Assembly (NCBI RefSeq): GCF_018986435.1 | Contig: NZ_JAHMIN010000034.1 | Location: 1 to 41,104 of the forward strand | Source: Hahella sp. HN01 | GTDB lineage: Bacteria; Pseudomonadota; Gammaproteobacteria; Pseudomonadales; Oleiphilaceae | DNA length: 41,104 nt | Direction of reading: 5' to 3' | In this document: positions 1,489-25,381 of the stretch, one piece after another | How positions within the stretch are numbered: the first letter of the stretch is position 1 | Layout: every line of letters begins with the position of its first letter | Program-made: the position numbers and the translations under genes | Notes under the pieces: model-generated | What the model was told of the DNA's origin: nothing | The model's input: only the letters and a program-made list of their open reading frames with translations | The model's database searches: none

Positions 1489-1517
1489 ATCGCTGAGTAA
1501 CTATGTTCTTTGTTAGC

Positions 1518-1549
1518 AAAAACGCCCTGTAAACTTACAGGGCGTTTTT
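1518..1549 (+). terminator. Rho-independent terminator between the two paralogues
   Basis: A perfect 13-bp stem, AAAAACGCCCTGT with ACAGGGCGTTTTT, closes a 6-nt loop (aaactt), and the 3' arm itself ends in five T. It lies 30 bp after the first paralogue's stop and upstream of the second paralogue's ribosome binding site, so the second gene probably relies on read-through or its own promoter. Confidence 0.85.
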
Positions 1550-1584
1550 ATTTAACGGTCTACAAAAATAGAGGGAGGCAAGAA

Positions 1585-2562
1585 GTGAGCATTTGGGCAA
1601 TCAAGCTCAGGAAAAAAAGACCATGCGCTCCGATAGGGCCCGACTTCGCTGGTGCAAAGCTTGTCAGTACTTCATTGTCTGGCTCTAAATTAGGGGTGAG
1701 GTTGAATCGTCATATGCCGACGGATGGCGCAGAGCACGCAATTTTTCTGGCTGAAAGCTACAACGTCTTCCATGACGAGTTATATACGGATGTTGGAAGA
1801 AAAGACGCTAAGCTGCTTAACATATTAACACGTAGCTGGAAGTTTCGAGGGCCTGCTTTTGTTGGGTATGTTGCGCATGTTAGCTTGGTTGTTACAGTCG
1901 AAAAGCGAAATCGCTCAGCTGGCGAAATATCGCTTTTTGAGCCTGCGGAGTTTGAGCGTTTTCTGCTAAGCAGGTTGACCAAGCTATATGGTAGTAAAAT
2001 CTACGATGGAAGAAGTGAGTATGAAGCGCCATATCAATGGAAAGTTCATCGATCACTTTCTGTGCCTGCGGTTAGCTATGAAATTCGACCTGTAATGGGT
2101 GGGCATGATCGCTCAATGTGTTTTGCCTTCCCTCTTGATCATCAAATCTGCGTGCTTTTCTATTTCCAGCTGGTTCAATATGAGCCGGGAAATCTCAATG
2201 ATAAAGACGAAATGGTTTCCCCTGATCCGCTCTATGCGTTGGTTCGGGAGGTCATTAACAGTGTGACTCTTGAACTTTCTCCTTCAGCTTTAGACGAATA
2301 CAAGAAGATAAAAGCAAGCTATCCTGAATCGACGCTAAGTGAGCGTCTTCAGCCGTTAAAATGGACAACGCCGGAGCAAGACGCTCAATGGAAAGACAAG
2401 CTTAGAAAAGAGGCTGAGTATCGCAGACAAATGGAGGTCTCGGAGAGCGAGCTTGCTCTTGAGGAGAAGCTGAAAGACGCGTCAGCGGAGGAACTAACCA
2501 AATATATCGAGCAAGCGATAGAAGCGGAGAAGAAGCAAAGCGGCGATCGGGGTAAAGGCTAG
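1585..2562 (+). CDS. Unrecognised protein, second tandem paralogue, with charged C-terminal extension
   Basis: Start GTG at 1585 is chosen because GGGAGG sits 9-14 bases upstream and the terminator of the previous gene lies before it. A longer in-frame TTG at 1510 would translate the terminator hairpin. The product of 325 residues matches the 610-1488 protein along its whole length: PCAPIGPDF near the start, SLSGSKL, FRGPAFVGYVA, the YGS-x-GRS-Y-AP region, and PLKWTTPEQD. Unlike its paralogue it carries about 50 extra C-terminal residues rich in Glu and Lys that should form a helix or coiled coil. Soluble, probably cytoplasmic. Function unknown; see the neighbouring remnant for the immunity-protein hypothesis. 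Confidence 0.75.
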   Translation: MSIWAIKLRKKRPCAPIGPDFAGAKLVSTSLSGSKLGVRLNRHMPTDGAEHAIFLAESYNVFHDELYTDVGRKDAKLLNILTRSWKFRGPAFVGYVAHVSLVVTVEKRNRSAGEISLFEPAEFERFLLSRLTKLYGSKIYDGRSEYEAPYQWKVHRSLSVPAVSYEIRPVMGGHDRSMCFAFPLDHQICVLFYFQLVQYEPGNLNDKDEMVSPDPLYALVREVINSVTLELSPSALDEYKKIKASYPESTLSERLQPLKWTTPEQDAQWKDKLRKEAEYRRQMEVSESELALEEKLKDASAEELTKYIEQAIEAEKKQSGDRGKG

Positions 2563-8114: not shown

Positions 8115-8138
8115 AAAGGCCGCCATTGCGGCCTTTTT
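8115..8138 (+). terminator. Rho-independent terminator after the glutaredoxin-like gene
   Basis: AAAGGCCGC-CATT-GCGGCCTTTTT: a perfect 9-bp stem, 4-base loop and T run, 25 bp after the stop. Its 3' end touches the stop codon of the convergent exonuclease gene, so it may work in both directions. Confidence 0.88.
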
Positions 8139-8695
8139 CACTTCAGGTTCTCCTGCAGAATATTACAGAACAGCGCGCCCTGTTCGATGGCGTCGTCCAG
8201 CGCCACATGGGTATGGGGCAGGGGATCAAACCAATGTTGGGGCATCTTACGTTTGGCGGTCTCCCTGAAGGGTGTTTTCAGCACCGCCATCGCGTAGCTT
8301 TTGATGTCCAGCGCAGAGTGAGAAAACGGACTCTCGCCAGTGAATTTCATCAGATACCAGTAGACGAACATAAAGTCGTAGGAAGCGGGATAACCGACGA
8401 AAACCGGCTTGCCGGGCAATTGCTTGAGCCACTGCAGATACTGCTGCATTGCCTGTTGCGGCGGCTGCAGGTCCTGGCGACAGGCATCCCAGGCGGCCTG
8501 ATTTTGCTCCCACCAGGCCTGCGTATCCGGGTGGGCGGAGGCTTCAGGGAGAGTTTCCAGGTTGGCGGAGAAGGTCCCGACCAATTCCTTTTCCGCCGTA
8601 TAAGCCGCTGAAGCGAAGCTCAGCATGGAATGCGGTCCGGGAATCGGTCCGTCCGCCTCCACATCGGTACTGACATAAATTTCTGGTTTCGCCAT
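8138..8695 (-). CDS. DEDDh-type 3'-5' exonuclease
   Basis: A 185-residue soluble protein of the RNase T/ribonuclease H-like exonuclease fold, which removes 3' nucleotides with two metal ions. The four acidic residues and the general base are visible: Asp11 and Glu13 in STDVEADG, Asp106 in SYDFMF, and His162 with Asp166 in HTHVALDDA. The sequence resembles a widespread stand-alone exonuclease family beginning with [21 protein letters not shown], which I recall from many bacteria; RNA or DNA preference is unknown. AGGTGA precedes the ATG. The gene starts 41 bp after the stop of the RpoC-like gene on the same strand, so cotranscription is possible. Confidence 0.9.
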
Positions 8696-8736: not shown

Positions 8737-11541
8737 TTAATCATTGGCCGCTAAATAGGGCTCAATGCCAGTGAATACCGGGCGGTAGAACACCGCCTCC
8801 GCCTGCGACAATTCCGCCAAGGGGTACTTCTTGCCTTTCCGAAAGCGGGGGTTGTTAGAGTCCGTCACTTTGCCATGGCTCAGTAGCGCCTTGATCAATA
8901 CCTCTATATATAGGCTGCGTATGGGAATTTCATCGTGGATGAAAACCTCCATGATTGCTTCCAGCAGATAGCGCTGCGCTGCACGCAGTCCTTGATACTT
9001 TAATATGTCGTGTATGGATGGGACGCCGTCAGTGAGGATGTCACCGCGAGAGATCTGGGCTCCCTCAAGAGCAGGGGAATAAAGGTGGCTTGATTCCAGT
9101 GTGTGTCGTTTTCCATGCATGTCAGTAATGTTTGGGCGACATAGACCCTGACCATAGGGTGAGTTAGGGAGAATCTTTTCGAAAGAAAGGCGTCCGCTTA
9201 CAGGCGATATTATTTGTTTTTGGGAGCGAAAATATTCGGGGGGACGTCCAGTCAAGAAATACTGCAATTTATCAGGACCGTGATGAAGGTATCTGTCTAG
9301 GCTCTGTTTATCCCTTATTCCTATTATATCTCCTTTGTATATGGTCGCTTTGTCAGTTATAGAGACAGAGTCGTTAGGCAAGAGTGGAATCTTGGAGAGT
9401 GGTTCACCGGATTCGGAGTGAATAATTATCGCAGGAGACTGGGAGCGGTCCTCTTTTTGACGCTTGCCTATAATATTGAAAGATTTCAGCTCGGTAAGTT
9501 CGTCACAGACTACTTCGAATGTTGCTCCTTCAATGAACTGATGAAATACTGCCACGCCATCTTCGAGAGCGATAATTGGCTGGCTGTAAGGATGCGCTTT
9601 GAAAAGCGCGTCTCCTGGGGCGACGCGCTCCCCGTCATTTACTAGCAGTATATCGCCATATCCCACACTAACGCTGGACCACAGATTTCCTGCGTCATCC
9701 AGGATATTCATTGCGCCTTTATATGAGCAGGCCACAGGCTTGTTTTCCGCTTTATTGATAATCGTGTCAAGCTCTACAAATTGGACTCGCCCAGCGGTCT
9801 CCGCCCGAGTGGTAATATATGGTTCGTTGCGGTTTGTACGATACGTTCCACCAAATAAATAGATAACAGCAAACTTGATTGTTTTGGATAAATGCGCGAA
9901 TGCAAGGTTTGTCAGCCCGGCGATATTTGTGTTGAGCGGCGACCAGCTTTGATGCGTTGGAGACTCTCCACAACAGACTTGGCAGACGCCTGCTTCTGAT
10001 TGGCAAGTTAGCGGGGAGCGCACAACAATGCCGGGAACCTGATGGGCGAATATCTGGTCAAGATGACGTGATCTGATGACTTTATTGGCGCCCAGGATAA
10101 CCTGACCAGTTGTTGGCGATATGACAGGTTGAGACGTTACTCTCCCTATAAAAGCCGCATTATTTGCAATCTCTAAATCAAACAGAGGGATGGGGAAGCC
10201 ATCTTTGGCGTTGCAGTCTTCGATATGCGTGACTAGTGATGGGTTGATTTGAGTCAGGTTGTGAAACTGCTTTGCAGTATCGTGTTCTTTTCGCATATCC
10301 GCTGTCATTATCAGGCGATAGTTCCCTGCTTCAAGTAAAGTCTCAATTTGACTGAGTCCACTTGCTTTATTGCGTAGAAAGTTTATTTCGAGGTATGCGG
10401 ATTGGTGAGTCATGACGCAACCGCCTATCACAGGGAGGTGGTTTGAGGTGCGTTCCTTTCCGAATGCGCCTACTTCACTGTGCCACTGCGTTGGTGAAGT
10501 GAGGCTGAATCGTTTTAAATGAAGCGTATCCGCTTGCTTGGTTATCACGGAGAGCGTTCTGAACAGCATATCGACATGCTTGTTATAGCGCTCGCCTTGG
10601 GTGAATAGTCCTGCTTCATACTGGTCGTAGTTCTTCCGCAACTCAGAGTCGCTCTCCTTCCGAAGTTGCGGTAGATCCGGCAGTGTCTCCAGTTCTTTGA
10701 ATGATGGAGAGATTGTGAGATGGGGGCGGTATGTATGCGCCAATGTGGTCAATATCTCCGCAAGCATGGGAAGGTCAAAGCTCGACTCCAGGGCCACACG
10801 GGTGAACAGCGTGTCGAGAAACAGTTTGTTGAAACAGCGGTTCAGTTCCTCTAATGAGAACCAGCGTGAGAGACTCCGGTTCGCCAAGATACGACCCACC
10901 GTTGAGAGCGTGCGGTTGCGACCGATTCTCACTTGTTGCTGTAGTGACGCCAGACCTCGATCATATCGATGCACCGCTTCGTCAGGGTGTAATAGGTCCA
11001 GGGTTGGTTTGGCGTCATCTCTGCAGGTCAGCTCGTATAAGGTGATGATATCCGCATTGTTCAGCCTGTTATGTCCAGAGAACTTGAATTCCGTGTCAGG
11101 ATCATATTCAAACTGTTGAACTGCACTGACTGTATGCGCGCCGGTTTGCAGATAGACCCTGACTCTGGCGCCGTATTCGATATGTTTTTCGGGATAATCA
11201 TGCGCCGATAACTGAATGGTCGGATCACCGGTGAGACAGGGGATAAGGCTCAAGTTTTGCGGAGGCGAACCCGGAAAATGTATCGCTACCCGATTCTGCG
11301 ACATGAGCGTCGTTAGGGTCTCAGGCAGGGTCGATGAGGAGAGGGTGCGGATATCGCCCTGTGCAAGGCGGGGCGTCAGAAGCGGCGCGAAGACTTTGAC
11401 AGCGACAGACAGGGGCAGCCCCACATGTCCCTGGCGCATAAGCGGCGAATGAACGCTGACTGCGCCTGTTTCGTTTGGATAATTCAATCCTTCGACTATC
11501 AGGGCCCGTAAGTCCGGCGCTAAATCTTTTATTGCATGCAT
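8737..11541 (-). CDS. Divergent, catalytically dead RNA polymerase beta' (RpoC)-like protein
   Basis: A 934-residue protein from ATG 11541 (944 from TTG 11571). It aligns by eye, in order, with E. coli RpoC from about 340 to 1305 (E. coli numbers from memory). GLPLSVAVKVFAPLLTPRL (41-59) matches GLPKKMALELFKPFIYGKL. YDRGLASLQQQVRI (193-206) matches YRSGLASLHARVKV. YEAGLFTQGERYNKHVD (308-324) matches FQSGLVTAGERYNKVID. The Zn2 cysteines are complete: Cys443, then Cys513, Cys520 and Cys523 in RSPLTCQSEAGVCQVC. An SI3-like insertion (about 576-750) includes DELTEL for DELTGL. HDILKYQGLRAAQRYL (844-859) matches HDILRLRGVHAVTRYI. The catalytic NADFDGD is replaced by HIEYGAR (120-126), and the trigger loop SIGEPGTQLTMRTFHIGG by FAHLSKTIKFAVIYLFGG. 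The N-terminal clamp, Zn1, sigma-binding coiled coil and C-terminus are absent. It cannot polymerise RNA; its role is unknown. Its middle part is visibly more AT-rich than its neighbours. Confidence 0.88.
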   Translation of the reverse strand: MHAIKDLAPDLRALIVEGLNYPNETGAVSVHSPLMRQGHVGLPLSVAVKVFAPLLTPRLAQGDIRTLSSSTLPETLTTLMSQNRVAIHFPGSPPQNLSLIPCLTGDPTIQLSAHDYPEKHIEYGARVRVYLQTGAHTVSAVQQFEYDPDTEFKFSGHNRLNNADIITLYELTCRDDAKPTLDLLHPDEAVHRYDRGLASLQQQVRIGRNRTLSTVGRILANRSLSRWFSLEELNRCFNKLFLDTLFTRVALESSFDLPMLAEILTTLAHTYRPHLTISPSFKELETLPDLPQLRKESDSELRKNYDQYEAGLFTQGERYNKHVDMLFRTLSVITKQADTLHLKRFSLTSPTQWHSEVGAFGKERTSNHLPVIGGCVMTHQSAYLEINFLRNKASGLSQIETLLEAGNYRLIMTADMRKEHDTAKQFHNLTQINPSLVTHIEDCNAKDGFPIPLFDLEIANNAAFIGRVTSQPVISPTTGQVILGANKVIRSRHLDQIFAHQVPGIVVRSPLTCQSEAGVCQVCCGESPTHQSWSPLNTNIAGLTNLAFAHLSKTIKFAVIYLFGGTYRTNRNEPYITTRAETAGRVQFVELDTIINKAENKPVACSYKGAMNILDDAGNLWSSVSVGYGDILLVNDGERVAPGDALFKAHPYSQPIIALEDGVAVFHQFIEGATFEVVCDELTELKSFNIIGKRQKEDRSQSPAIIIHSESGEPLSKIPLLPNDSVSITDKATIYKGDIIGIRDKQSLDRYLHHGPDKLQYFLTGRPPEYFRSQKQIISPVSGRLSFEKILPNSPYGQGLCRPNITDMHGKRHTLESSHLYSPALEGAQISRGDILTDGVPSIHDILKYQGLRAAQRYLLEAIMEVFIHDEIPIRSLYIEVLIKALLSHGKVTDSNNPRFRKGKKYPLAELSQAEAVFYRPVFTGIEPYLAAND

Positions 11542-11829
11542 ATCAAATACCCGCTGTTGACAGATGGCCAATGAGCCGTATAATGGCGCTTATATACCTT
11601 CCATAAGTTACATATCTTCTTGTTTTCCCTAACAAAAAACCGTCAACGTTAATACTCTTTCATCTTTCTTGCAAACACTTTCCTATATGATGGCGTCTCC
11701 GTCGATGGAGTGGCGTTTATCCTTTGCTGATGCGGGTTGGCGACAGCAATTTCAGGCTTGCGTTCTATACTAGTGGCAGGACTGAAACCAAGTTTGCGAA
11801 CTTTTGCAATCTGCGTTGAGGACAAAGGG
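11542..11829. promoter_or_regulatory. Divergent intergenic region between the RpoC-like and methyltransferase genes
   Basis: About 290 bp, AT-rich, holding the promoters of both genes. On the minus strand a TTGACG at about 11641-11646 could be a -35 element, but I see no well-spaced -10 box. The RpoC-like ATG has only a weak GCGGG as ribosome binding site. No gene and no strong dyad is visible. Confidence 0.35.
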
Positions 11830-12495
11830 ATGAACGGACAAGAAAGAGTGTTGTTGGACGCCAGGCCGGGGCAGGCGGTTTATAACCGCATTACCTTGCC
11901 CTTTTACGATTCTATGGTGCTTGGCTTTTCCAATCATTTCGCTTGGCGTTGTCCATCGGCGAATCTGCTCGAACTGTATAACCGGAACCTGTCGGCGTCT
12001 CATCTGGAGATGGGCGTGGGCACCGGCTACTTTCTCGACCATTGTACTCCTGCCGTTCGGCTCGAAAAGCTGACGTTATTGGACCTGAATCCAACGTGCC
12101 TGCGTTATACCGCCGGTCGCCTCTGGCGCTATCAGCCAAGGTCGTTGAGGCACAATGCGTTAGAGCCATTCCCTTTAGACTCACATCAGTTCGGCTCTGT
12201 GGGATTGAATTACTTACTGCACTGCATGCCCGGCTCGCCGGAGCAGAAGGGCGTTGTATTTGATCACGTGAAAGCCGTGTTGGCGGAGGTAGGCGTCTGC
12301 TTCGGTTCGACGATCATTAATAACGGTGGGGAATCCCGGTTGGGCGGACTGTTGAAGATGCTCTACAACCGCAAAGGAATTTTCAGCAACCTGAAGGATA
12401 CCGCCGACGCCTGGATCGAGCAGTTGGAGGCTAGGTTCAGGCGGGTGCAAACGCAAGAGATCGGCGCTGTTCTGTTGTTTTCCGCTAGAGACTGA
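11830..12495 (+). CDS. Class I SAM-dependent methyltransferase
   Basis: From ATG 11830, with GAGG 9-12 bases upstream, the product has 221 residues; an earlier in-frame codon at 11737 lacks a ribosome binding site. The SAM-binding motif I is HLEMGVGTGYFLDHC (about residues 58-72). The acidic end of strand 2 is LTLLDLNPTCL (about 82-92). Motif III-like GSVGLNYLLHCMPG follows, and the last strands read EIGAVLLFSARD. The VYNRITLPFYD start is typical of small-molecule methyltransferases of this size. The substrate is unknown. It is divergent from the RpoC-like gene and 46 bp upstream of the next gene. Confidence 0.88.
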   Translation: MNGQERVLLDARPGQAVYNRITLPFYDSMVLGFSNHFAWRCPSANLLELYNRNLSASHLEMGVGTGYFLDHCTPAVRLEKLTLLDLNPTCLRYTAGRLWRYQPRSLRHNALEPFPLDSHQFGSVGLNYLLHCMPGSPEQKGVVFDHVKAVLAEVGVCFGSTIINNGGESRLGGLLKMLYNRKGIFSNLKDTADAWIEQLEARFRRVQTQEIGAVLLFSARD

Positions 12496-19309: not shown

Positions 19310-19446
19310 CGCGGAAAAACTCGGCGTTGATCCTGTTTTAGCAGACGGCTAATCGCGGAAAAAATATTTGCATCAGGCTGTATTGAGCGCCCTGAGAGGC
19401 GCGGATAAAATCGCCGGATTTCCAACTATCGTCGGTGAGACAGCAT

Positions 19447-20028
19447 ATGTGGCGTTCGGTTTCTTCAAGCGAGCAGGGACAAAAGCAGGAACGGCGTCCA
19501 GCCTCTGGCGGCGTCAAGGAATCCAGCTTTTGGTTGAGTCAGATATTCATGTTGGCGGCGACGGTGCTGGGGGTATTTCTCGCCGCCCAGGAAGGCCTCA
19601 ATCAGGCGATTGCGTTCGATGACCTGACATCCCGTCAGAACAACTATTATTTACGCAGTTCCCTGGCCAGCGAGTTGCAGAGCAATATCGCCCAGGCCAG
19701 GGAGTATGCGGAATTTGTGCAACGTTCCAGCGACAACACGATCAAACAGTATCCGCTGCAATTGGATCTGTTTGTGTGGGAGAGCATGCGTTATTCTCCC
19801 GCCACTTTGGAGACGCCGTCTGAGTTTATCTCGGAGATTCAACGATTCTATCGCGAGGCCAATGATATTCGTCAGAAGATCGAGCGTAGGGTTTACGGGT
19901 CTGAGTTCGGCGGACAGGAGCTGCTGAAAGTGACGGAGCGCATGGAGAAAGACGTCATGCCAAAATTGCGCGCCAACATCGAAGGCTTGAAAAAGTCATT
20001 GGCGGACAAGGGCGTAGTGTTGGATTGA
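19447..20028 (+). CDS. Membrane-anchored helical protein, paralogue of the gene at 24779
   Basis: From ATG 19447 (GGTGAG upstream; GTG 19435 is an alternative) the product has 193 residues. A charged N-terminus leads to KESSFWLSQIFMLAATVLGVFLAAQEGLNQAI, one membrane helix (about residues 28-50). A helical domain follows with the conserved block LQLDLFVWESMRYSPATLETPSEF (about 103-126). The copy at 24779 is roughly two thirds identical, with DNA similarity extending through the membrane segment. I recognise no family; it may be an inner-membrane protein with a periplasmic or cytoplasmic helical domain. Confidence 0.78.
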   Translation: MWRSVSSSEQGQKQERRPASGGVKESSFWLSQIFMLAATVLGVFLAAQEGLNQAIAFDDLTSRQNNYYLRSSLASELQSNIAQAREYAEFVQRSSDNTIKQYPLQLDLFVWESMRYSPATLETPSEFISEIQRFYREANDIRQKIERRVYGSEFGGQELLKVTERMEKDVMPKLRANIEGLKKSLADKGVVLD

Positions 20029-24778: not shown

Positions 24779-25381
24779 ATGGATATGCAGCAGTCCTCGC
24801 CCGCCGCGACCCACGACGGTCGTCGCACTCAGGAAACACACGCCAAGAAAGAGGGAAACGGGATCAAGGAGTCCAGTTTCTGGATCAGCCAGATATTCAT
24901 GATCCTGGCGACGGTGCTCGGCGTCTATCTGGCGGCGCAGGAAGGGCTAAATCAGGCGATTATTTTTGACGACCTGACTTCCCAACAAAACAATTACTAC
25001 CTGCGCAACTCGCTGGCCAGCGAGTTGCAGAGCAATATCATGCAAGCGGAGAAGTATGCTGAGTTCGTGAAGTCTCCTCCCAGCCGTAGCGCGATCAAAA
25101 TGTTTCCGCTGCAACTCGATTTATTCGTTTGGGAGAGCATGCGTTACTCTCCCTCGGCGTTGGAGACGCCCAGTCAGTTTATCCTTGAAATCCAGCGCTA
25201 TTACCGGGAGTTGGAAGACATTCGCGGCAAAATTGAGAGCAGCGCCTATGCGCCTCATTACGGCGCAGAGGAGATGAAAAAGCGTACGGAGCGGATGAAA
25301 AACGAGGTGCTGCCCAAGTTGCTCGCTAATGTGGATACGTTGAGACGTTATTTAAAAGAACACAATGCGCCGGTGGATTAA
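24779..25381 (+). CDS. Membrane-anchored helical protein, paralogue of the gene at 19447
   Basis: A 200-residue protein with a hydrophilic, Gln/His-rich start and the same anchor KESSFWISQIFMILATVLGVYL followed by AAQEGLNQAI (about residues 30-62). It has the same QLDLFVWESMRYSPSALETPSQF block as the copy at 19447, to which it is about two thirds identical. The helical C-terminal part ends at APVD, where the copy ends at VVLD. The pair must come from a duplication; the 4.7 kb between them is not duplicated. Function unknown. Confidence 0.8.
   Translation: MDMQQSSPAATHDGRRTQETHAKKEGNGIKESSFWISQIFMILATVLGVYLAAQEGLNQAIIFDDLTSQQNNYYLRNSLASELQSNIMQAEKYAEFVKSPPSRSAIKMFPLQLDLFVWESMRYSPSALETPSQFILEIQRYYRELEDIRGKIESSAYAPHYGAEEMKKRTERMKNEVLPKLLANVDTLRRYLKEHNAPVD

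Follow-up and report, generated by a model that had tools for sequence, protein, structure and literature searches.

What is kept when a bacterium carries a gene that follows most of the RNA polymerase beta' subunit in order and lacks the catalytic motif of that subunit? The question is raised by the 41,104-nucleotide stretch analysed here (contig NZ_JAHMIN010000034.1 of Hahella sp. HN01, assembly GCF_018986435.1; the window is this whole stretch), in which a preliminary description, made from the sequence alone, had proposed a stand-alone RpoC-like pseudoenzyme. The window's genome is labelled G000 and six other genomes of the genus G001–G006. The gene is with high confidence a maintained, fast-evolving beta' pseudoenzyme, and its occurrence is restricted to some genomes of a single genus, two sister genomes having lost it naturally.

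8737–11571, minus strand: beta'-like pseudoenzyme, 944 amino acids from a TTG start, recognised by profile and sequence matches and by an intact orthologue in G001 (83% identity)

The frame comprises 944 codons, from the TTG at 11571 (first ATG at 11541) to the stop at 8737. Of the Pfam models Rpb1_2 to Rpb1_5, with which the preliminary description had proposed to check the protein, only RNA_pol_Rpb1_5 was matched, as the sole Pfam match and slightly below its gathering score (E = 2.2e-6; 27.7 bits versus 28.5), whereas the full-length NCBIfam model rpoC_TIGR was matched significantly (E = 4e-41), at 140.8 bits versus a curated cut-off of 963.5; the case that no significant RpoC profile match exists is thereby excluded. 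A phmmer search of Protein Data Bank (PDB) chains returned beta' chains (E = 3.9e-44), and an hhalign comparison in which the two orthologues were set against 100 normal RpoC rows gave a probability of 100% (E = 7e-67; query 1–944 to E. coli 316–1317), the N-terminal pieces alone reaching 0.2% (residues 1–120), 0.1% (1–220) and 5% (90–260). Within the alignment to the same 100 rows, the protein follows E. coli beta' collinearly over residues ~354–1317 with the module order preserved, which confirms the collinear descent described earlier and moves its bounds from about 340–1305. Shuffle tests against three RpoC sequences placed the first recognisable segment at residues 37–69 (E. coli 354–385; 0 of 300 shuffles scored equally well against each), while for residues 175–216 (E. 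coli 507–550) the counts were 0 of 300 with E. coli and 248 and 30 of 300 with the remaining two sequences. Residues 1–36 had no significant match, and the reading of residues 1–35 as a relic of the LPPDLRPL segment was rejected (61, 63 and 27 of 300 shuffles equally good). Judged by the significant profile match in collinear order and a four-cysteine Zn2 site, the protein is a member of the RpoC homology superfamily.

The modules are named and delimited after E. coli beta', from which the catalytic roles are also taken, and near-invariant residues were scored in the alignment with the 100 normal RpoC rows, counts being residues kept out of residues aligned. Confidence values are predicted local distance difference test scores (pLDDT) from the structural model considered below.

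11077–11274, minus strand: place of the catalytic loop, residues 100–165; no NADFDGD and no recognisable RpoC similarity; pLDDT <50 over 86–168
10522–10656, minus strand: secondary-channel rim helices, residues 306–350 (E. coli 656–701); about 50% identity to the normal consensus; pLDDT 61–85
10243–10350, minus strand: bridge-helix equivalent, residues 408–443 (E. coli 769–804); 3 of 30 near-invariant residues kept
9934–10254, minus strand: Zn2 region with C453, C523, C530 and C533; cysteines present in both orthologues; pLDDT 78–92 in most blocks
9841–9924, minus strand: trigger-loop equivalent, residues 550–577 (E. coli 915–942); 1 of 22 near-invariant residues kept
9292–9840, minus strand: SI3-like insertion, residues 578–760, beta-rich; 13 of 20 near-invariant residues kept; pLDDT mostly 74–94
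9019–9237, minus strand: jaw equivalent (E. coli 1151–1215); 4 of 11 near-invariant residues kept; acidic residues of the Gp2 contact not kept
8902–9015, minus strand: HDILKYQGLRAAQRY helix segment, placed by alignment with normal RpoC

The losses include the catalytic parts. NADFDGD is absent at its expected place in both copies; the preliminary description had HIEYGAR standing in for it, and since residues 100–165 are not RpoC-like (291, 223 and 147 of 300 shuffles score equally well against three RpoC), that correspondence is one of spacing only, although the motif itself is indeed missing from where it belongs. The trigger loop is as unrecognisable in its catalytic residues as had been reported (M932 to F, R933 to A and H936 to Y), and its C-terminal arm retains 3 of 16 near-invariant residues. 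The N-terminal clamp, Zn1, the sigma-binding coiled coil and the C-terminal ~90 residues are missing, with scattered aligned residues only before E. coli position 350 and none after 1317, in agreement with the earlier statement on Zn1, the coiled coil and the C-terminus. As far as sequence can tell, catalysis by the normal beta' active site is lost.

The alignment with normal RpoC also bore out the complete Zn2 site, the SI3-like insertion and the HDILKYQGLRAAQRY helix. All four Zn2 cysteines, equivalent to E. coli C814, C888, C895 and C898, occur in both copies. The GERYNK motif is indeed present in the window copy at 326–331; it is RDRYNN in the orthologue and thus not conserved. In the remaining blocks (E. 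coli numbering) the residues kept were 10 of 21 in 601–700, 10 of 24 in Zn2 and its link, 12 of 38 in 1216–1317, 18 of 79 in the barrel (350–500), 6 of 14 in 501–600 and 9 of 31 in the F-loop and funnel (701–770). Pooled, the bridge helix, trigger loop and arm kept 7 of 68, versus 49 of 114 for 601–700, 805–914, SI3 and 1151–1317 (p = 2e-6); the pools were chosen after inspection of the alignment, with blocks 350–600 and 701–770 in neither.

An AlphaFold2 model was computed from an alignment in which the window protein was joined by 53 normal RpoC rows, an input that biases it towards the normal RpoC fold, and had a mean pLDDT of 66.7 and a predicted template modelling score (pTM) of 0.47. Confidence was mostly >70 in Zn2 and SI3, the latter dropping near 585, 705 and 756, and 47–85 in the jaw; the longest stretches <50 were 1–59, 86–168, 368–427 and 564–583. 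The top 50 PDB matches listed by Foldseek were all RNA polymerase or transcription-complex entries, with E. coli beta' first (E = 3e-45); by query length the template modelling scores were 0.40–0.48, and the root-mean-square deviation (rmsd) to listed chains was >11. The same procedure applied to a normal Marinobacter RpoC fragment gave a mean pLDDT of 75.8 and a pTM of 0.62. The low stretch at 86–168 covers the double-psi barrel region, where the normal control was likewise low (85–97 and 106–130); the control was also low over 414–457 and, over 31–80, better than the window counterpart (control blocks 75–86).

The protein stands alone, as had been proposed. Elsewhere the genome has a single normal rpoC, whose 1397-aa frame scores 1811.8 bits, and a single rpoB, which excludes the case that it has no other rpoC and that this gene is the main subunit. 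An Rpb1_1 search of the seven genomes found that domain once per genome, in a 1397-aa frame in 7 of 7, so that the N-terminal domain which the pseudoenzyme lacks is not encoded by a gene of its own.

Between the G000 and G001 copies there are 330 changes, with a nonsynonymous rate (dN) of 0.091, a synonymous rate (dS) of 0.255 and a ratio (dN/dS) of 0.355, compared with 0.026–0.145 for eight neighbouring genes of these two genomes; resting on a single sequence pair, the estimate leaves the strength of selection uncertain. Along the gene, in ten 100-codon blocks, the ratio was at most 0.515 and lay at 0.24–0.34 in seven. When 330 random changes were simulated neutrally 2000 times, 10.3 stops were expected and 1 of 2000 runs was stop-free, whereas none is seen; synonymous changes made up 145.6 of the 330, versus a maximum of 111 in the simulations. 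The copies differ by one in-frame indel, and neither has a stop or frameshift over 2.8 kb. The marks of a pseudogene (stops, frameshifts, dN/dS near 1) are thus not found in them, true remnants occurring in G002 and G005 only, and the intact frame and purifying signature between the two known copies agree with the earlier view that the gene is maintained rather than decaying. Synonymous divergence differs strongly from one part of the gene to another (chi-square 76, p = 1e-12), and the two alleles look mosaic.

The distribution of the gene is narrow. A whole-protein search of 97 relatives, including the window's genome, gave 83 with a match and 14 without, and only G000 (100%) and G001 (83%) carry the gene; apart from a short relic match in G002 and G005, the other matches (20–28%) fit normal rpoC. 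Within the genus, one of the six other genomes therefore has an intact orthologue (G001, with the same neighbours on a single 7.16-Mb contig), and the pseudoenzyme was not found in G003, G004 and G006 by whole-protein and N-terminal profile searches. A profile of residues 1–300, a part barely matched by normal RpoC, had matches in 1 of 390 order, 1 of 369 class, 2 of 163 family and 4 of 398 phylum genomes, the taxon samples overlapping; three of the four phylum matches were weak, in frames of 1383–1408 aa, and are taken as normal rpoC, and beyond the genus no further copy was found in these samples. A single-protein scan of genome contigs found no wider relatives, and the best 80 of 574 relatives in a mixed-alignment scan were all 22–25% identical and ordinary-rpoC-like (frames of 1056–1515 aa, the short ones apparently cut by contig ends). 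One genome (G086) has RpoC matches in 470- and 986-aa frames on contigs C164 and C209, probably an rpoC that is either a split gene or divided between contigs.

No relative turned up when viral contigs were scanned with exact seeds. Eleven phage records matched at 20.8–24.6% identity, four of them annotated as RNA polymerase beta', beta or rpoC and seven unannotated; there were 63 plasmid records, and among the 40 matches listed identity was 19.5–23.9%, with rpoC named where annotated. A phage or plasmid origin was rejected, as these records look like ordinary rpoC (19–25% among the matches listed). In a quick tree of 53 rows and a careful one of 27, the pair fell inside the Pseudomonadota on a saturated branch of length ~10, and grouping with the RpoC of its own lineage was not rejected (approximately unbiased test, p-AU 0.142). 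The guanine-plus-cytosine (GC) content of the gene (0.496) is the third lowest of the 34 window genes and is uninformative about a recent foreign origin, the genome's own rpoC being equally low (0.48). The third-position GC of that normal rpoC is 0.48 versus a mean of 0.64 in 33 window genes.

In two genomes the gene has been deleted in place, between two neighbours.

8921–8992, minus strand: 72-bp remnant surviving in G002 and G005, 93% DNA identity, beside ~190 bp of filler, flanks kept
8138–8695, minus strand: 3'-5' exonuclease-like gene in the orientation of the pseudoenzyme and 41 bp downstream of it; Rv2179c-like (E = 1e-4, under the gathering score)
11557–11584, plus strand: sigma-70 consensus TTGACA-16-TATAAT, 12 of 12 consensus bases, also in G001

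In G002 and G005 the exonuclease and a methyltransferase-like gene are in place, with only the 72 bp of the pseudoenzyme gene and filler between them; at the protein level the remnant is 77% identical over ~30 aa, with a stop, and the 193 bases of filler searched occur nowhere else in the seven genomes. The two genomes agree in 391 of 401 columns over the deletion stretch and by 78–95% in 500-bp blocks elsewhere, which indicates that the deletion allele was probably moved by recombination. On the strand opposite to the pseudoenzyme gene, the perfect sigma-70 consensus overlaps that gene's 5' end and is directed at the methyltransferase gene; the deletion in both genomes stops right beside the consensus. 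In G006 the exonuclease is present, and the 20 kb around it hold neither the pseudoenzyme nor the other tested neighbours; by eye, it lies there near an Rhs-like gene.

What such a protein might do was considered from the pattern of loss. Because the catalytic parts are lost and the peripheral modules are better kept, a binding role is argued: a divergent, truncated beta' copy that makes no RNA would be kept by selection as a binding protein, folding into the secondary-channel rim, Zn2, SI3 and jaw modules. It may mimic the polymerase surface formed by the secondary channel, SI3 and jaw, titrating proteins that dock on this surface or competing for them, the candidates being host factors of the Gre/DksA type or polymerase binders made by phages; it would not be part of a polymerase. 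As a whole, a selection-kept, non-catalytic, beta'-derived binding protein is the best explanation, held tentatively and at somewhat less than an even chance. A binding mimic in general has about an even chance; secondary-channel factors as its target are unlikely when taken singly, and phage polymerase binders similarly so. The fullest version, a pseudo-subunit regulator or guard that stands alone, mimics the polymerase surface, is exchanged as diverse alleles between sister bacteria and sequesters or senses phage- or host-made binders of the secondary-channel/SI3 face, is speculative and rather unlikely.

The two target classes named in the preliminary description were compared with known interfaces. 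Passages of PMC6488371 and PMC7676912 describe E. coli E677, N680 and K681 as mattering for DksA and site 2 of guanosine tetraphosphate (ppGpp). The equivalents of all three are kept in the window copy, which lends a secondary-channel role some weak support; neither copy retains the other ppGpp-site residues looked at (417, 615, 619, 622 and 626), and the rim helices as a specially conserved element were rejected. As for a decoy against phage inhibitors, the T7 Gp2 interface on the E. coli jaw was taken from a passage of PMC3778932, and its acidic contacts are lost in both copies (E1158 to P, D1181 to H/N, E1187 to H, E1188 to T), which disfavours a decoy of the T7 Gp2 type. The genome's own normal RpoC keeps E1158, D1181 and E1187 but has I and L in place of E. 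coli E1188 and M1189, and the E. coli interface therefore gives no more than approximate guidance for this genome.

Several observations weigh against a selected binding protein. No promoter-like site was found upstream on the gene's own strand, and a clear ribosome-binding site was not seen by eye. The gene is deleted in two of the four genomes sharing the locus, and a dN/dS of 0.355 from a single pair is compatible with relaxed constraint as well. In the orthologue the three rim residues are D, N and N, so that the E677 and K681 equivalents are changed, and the rim segment, the best-conserved window of the alignment, is within chance (425 of 2000 shuffles). Beyond the bias of its input, the model's poor overall fit (pTM 0.47, rmsd >11) would leave the placement of the modules relative to one another unsupported. 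A DPDTE/DPDKE stretch at 157–161 in both copies, away from the expected place of NADFDGD, carries a small chance of being a displaced metal site.

Among the alternatives, a slowly dying gene, that is, an old and once functional beta' paralogue under relaxed constraint and without a present function worth naming, is a minority possibility that deserves to be taken seriously. The elevated dN/dS relative to the eight neighbours, the remnant in G002 and G005 with no gene found in G003, G004 and G006, and the altered GERYNK motif of the orthologue are all in line with it, while a 2.8-kb frame free of stops and frameshifts in both copies where ~10 stops would be expected, a synonymous excess above all 2000 neutral simulations and the dN/dS values along the blocks argue against it. 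Another alternative is a decoy or guard in phage conflict: by surface mimicry it would bind RNA-polymerase-targeting proteins made by phages, and the exonuclease next to it might act as its effector. Presence/absence polymorphism, mosaic alleles and fast change resemble conflict genes, and the exonuclease matches the PADLOC model PDLC00753 'Effector / Exonuclease' (E = 1e-33). For the pseudoenzyme, however, PADLOC gave no match, and the exact-seed viral-contig scans gave no relative; the phage and plasmid matches listed are at 19–25% identity, like those of normal rpoC, the Gp2 contacts are lost, and in genomes without the pseudoenzyme the exonuclease is kept at 98–99% identity under strong purifying selection (dN/dS 0.019–0.030), so it is not a dependent effector. 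A two-gene system with the exonuclease was rejected on that conservation, and a conflict role overall is unlikely.

The idea of an altered polymerase, in which the protein would still join beta, alpha and omega as an accessory or dominant-negative beta', could draw on the collinearity with beta' over ~900 residues; with no second rpoB and no N-terminal beta' gene in the genome, with the clamp, Zn1, the sigma-binding coiled coil and the C-terminal region missing and with the residues of the catalytic loop, bridge helix and trigger loop lost, it is very improbable. That the frame arose by chance, or is an artefact of assembly or annotation, can practically be dismissed: nothing in support of it was found (the assembly of the window's genome comprises 134 contigs), and against it stand the same gene with the same neighbours in the single contig of G001 and the beta' homology itself (E = 4e-44).

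The methyltransferase-like gene (11737–12495, plus strand) matches PHROG 2132 (E = 9e-36), a family of unknown function, and a second methyltransferase-like copy (40–42%) is present in each of four genomes. The other neighbours, ordinary ones too, are glutaredoxin-like and cytochrome-like proteins and, by eye only, a major facilitator superfamily (MFS) transporter and a histidine kinase. Elsewhere in the window, tandem frames at 610–1488 and 1510–2562 (plus strand; GC 0.46; without a Pfam match) are related by eye and possibly an immunity-gene array, and two proteins ~5 kb apart (19435–20028 and 24779–25381, plus strand) are, by eye, clearly related.

Set against known systems, the pseudoenzyme shares with RpoC of the proteobacterial type with SI3 (TIGR02386) the order of modules over 354–1317, the Zn2 cysteines, SI3, the jaw and the HDIL helix at 22–26% identity, but differs in lacking NADFDGD, most bridge-helix and trigger-loop residues, the clamp N-terminus, Zn1, the coiled coil and the C-terminus. 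The multisubunit RNA polymerases of phages of the phiKZ type are likewise divergent and beta'-derived (best viral fold match E = 2e-22, 13% identity), yet the pseudoenzyme is nearer bacterial RpoC (fold match E = 3e-45) and had no relative in the exact-seed scans of viral contigs. As in split beta' genes of the rpoC1/rpoC2 type, its frame starts inside beta', like rpoC2; here, however, no partner gene exists for the N-terminal half and the catalytic residues are gone. Among the matches listed in open-licence PubMed Central papers, no description of such a non-catalytic beta' paralogue was found. To a known family the gene adds a maintained, narrowly distributed and catalytically dead beta' form, which might conceivably have a function of an entirely new category. 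Few bacterial proteins are under constraint as tight as that on beta', and a long-lived non-catalytic copy outside the polymerase would show reuse of its fold and would serve as a natural probe of the polymerase surfaces targeted by host or phage factors. With two intact alleles and two natural deletions in one genus, the gene is directly testable.

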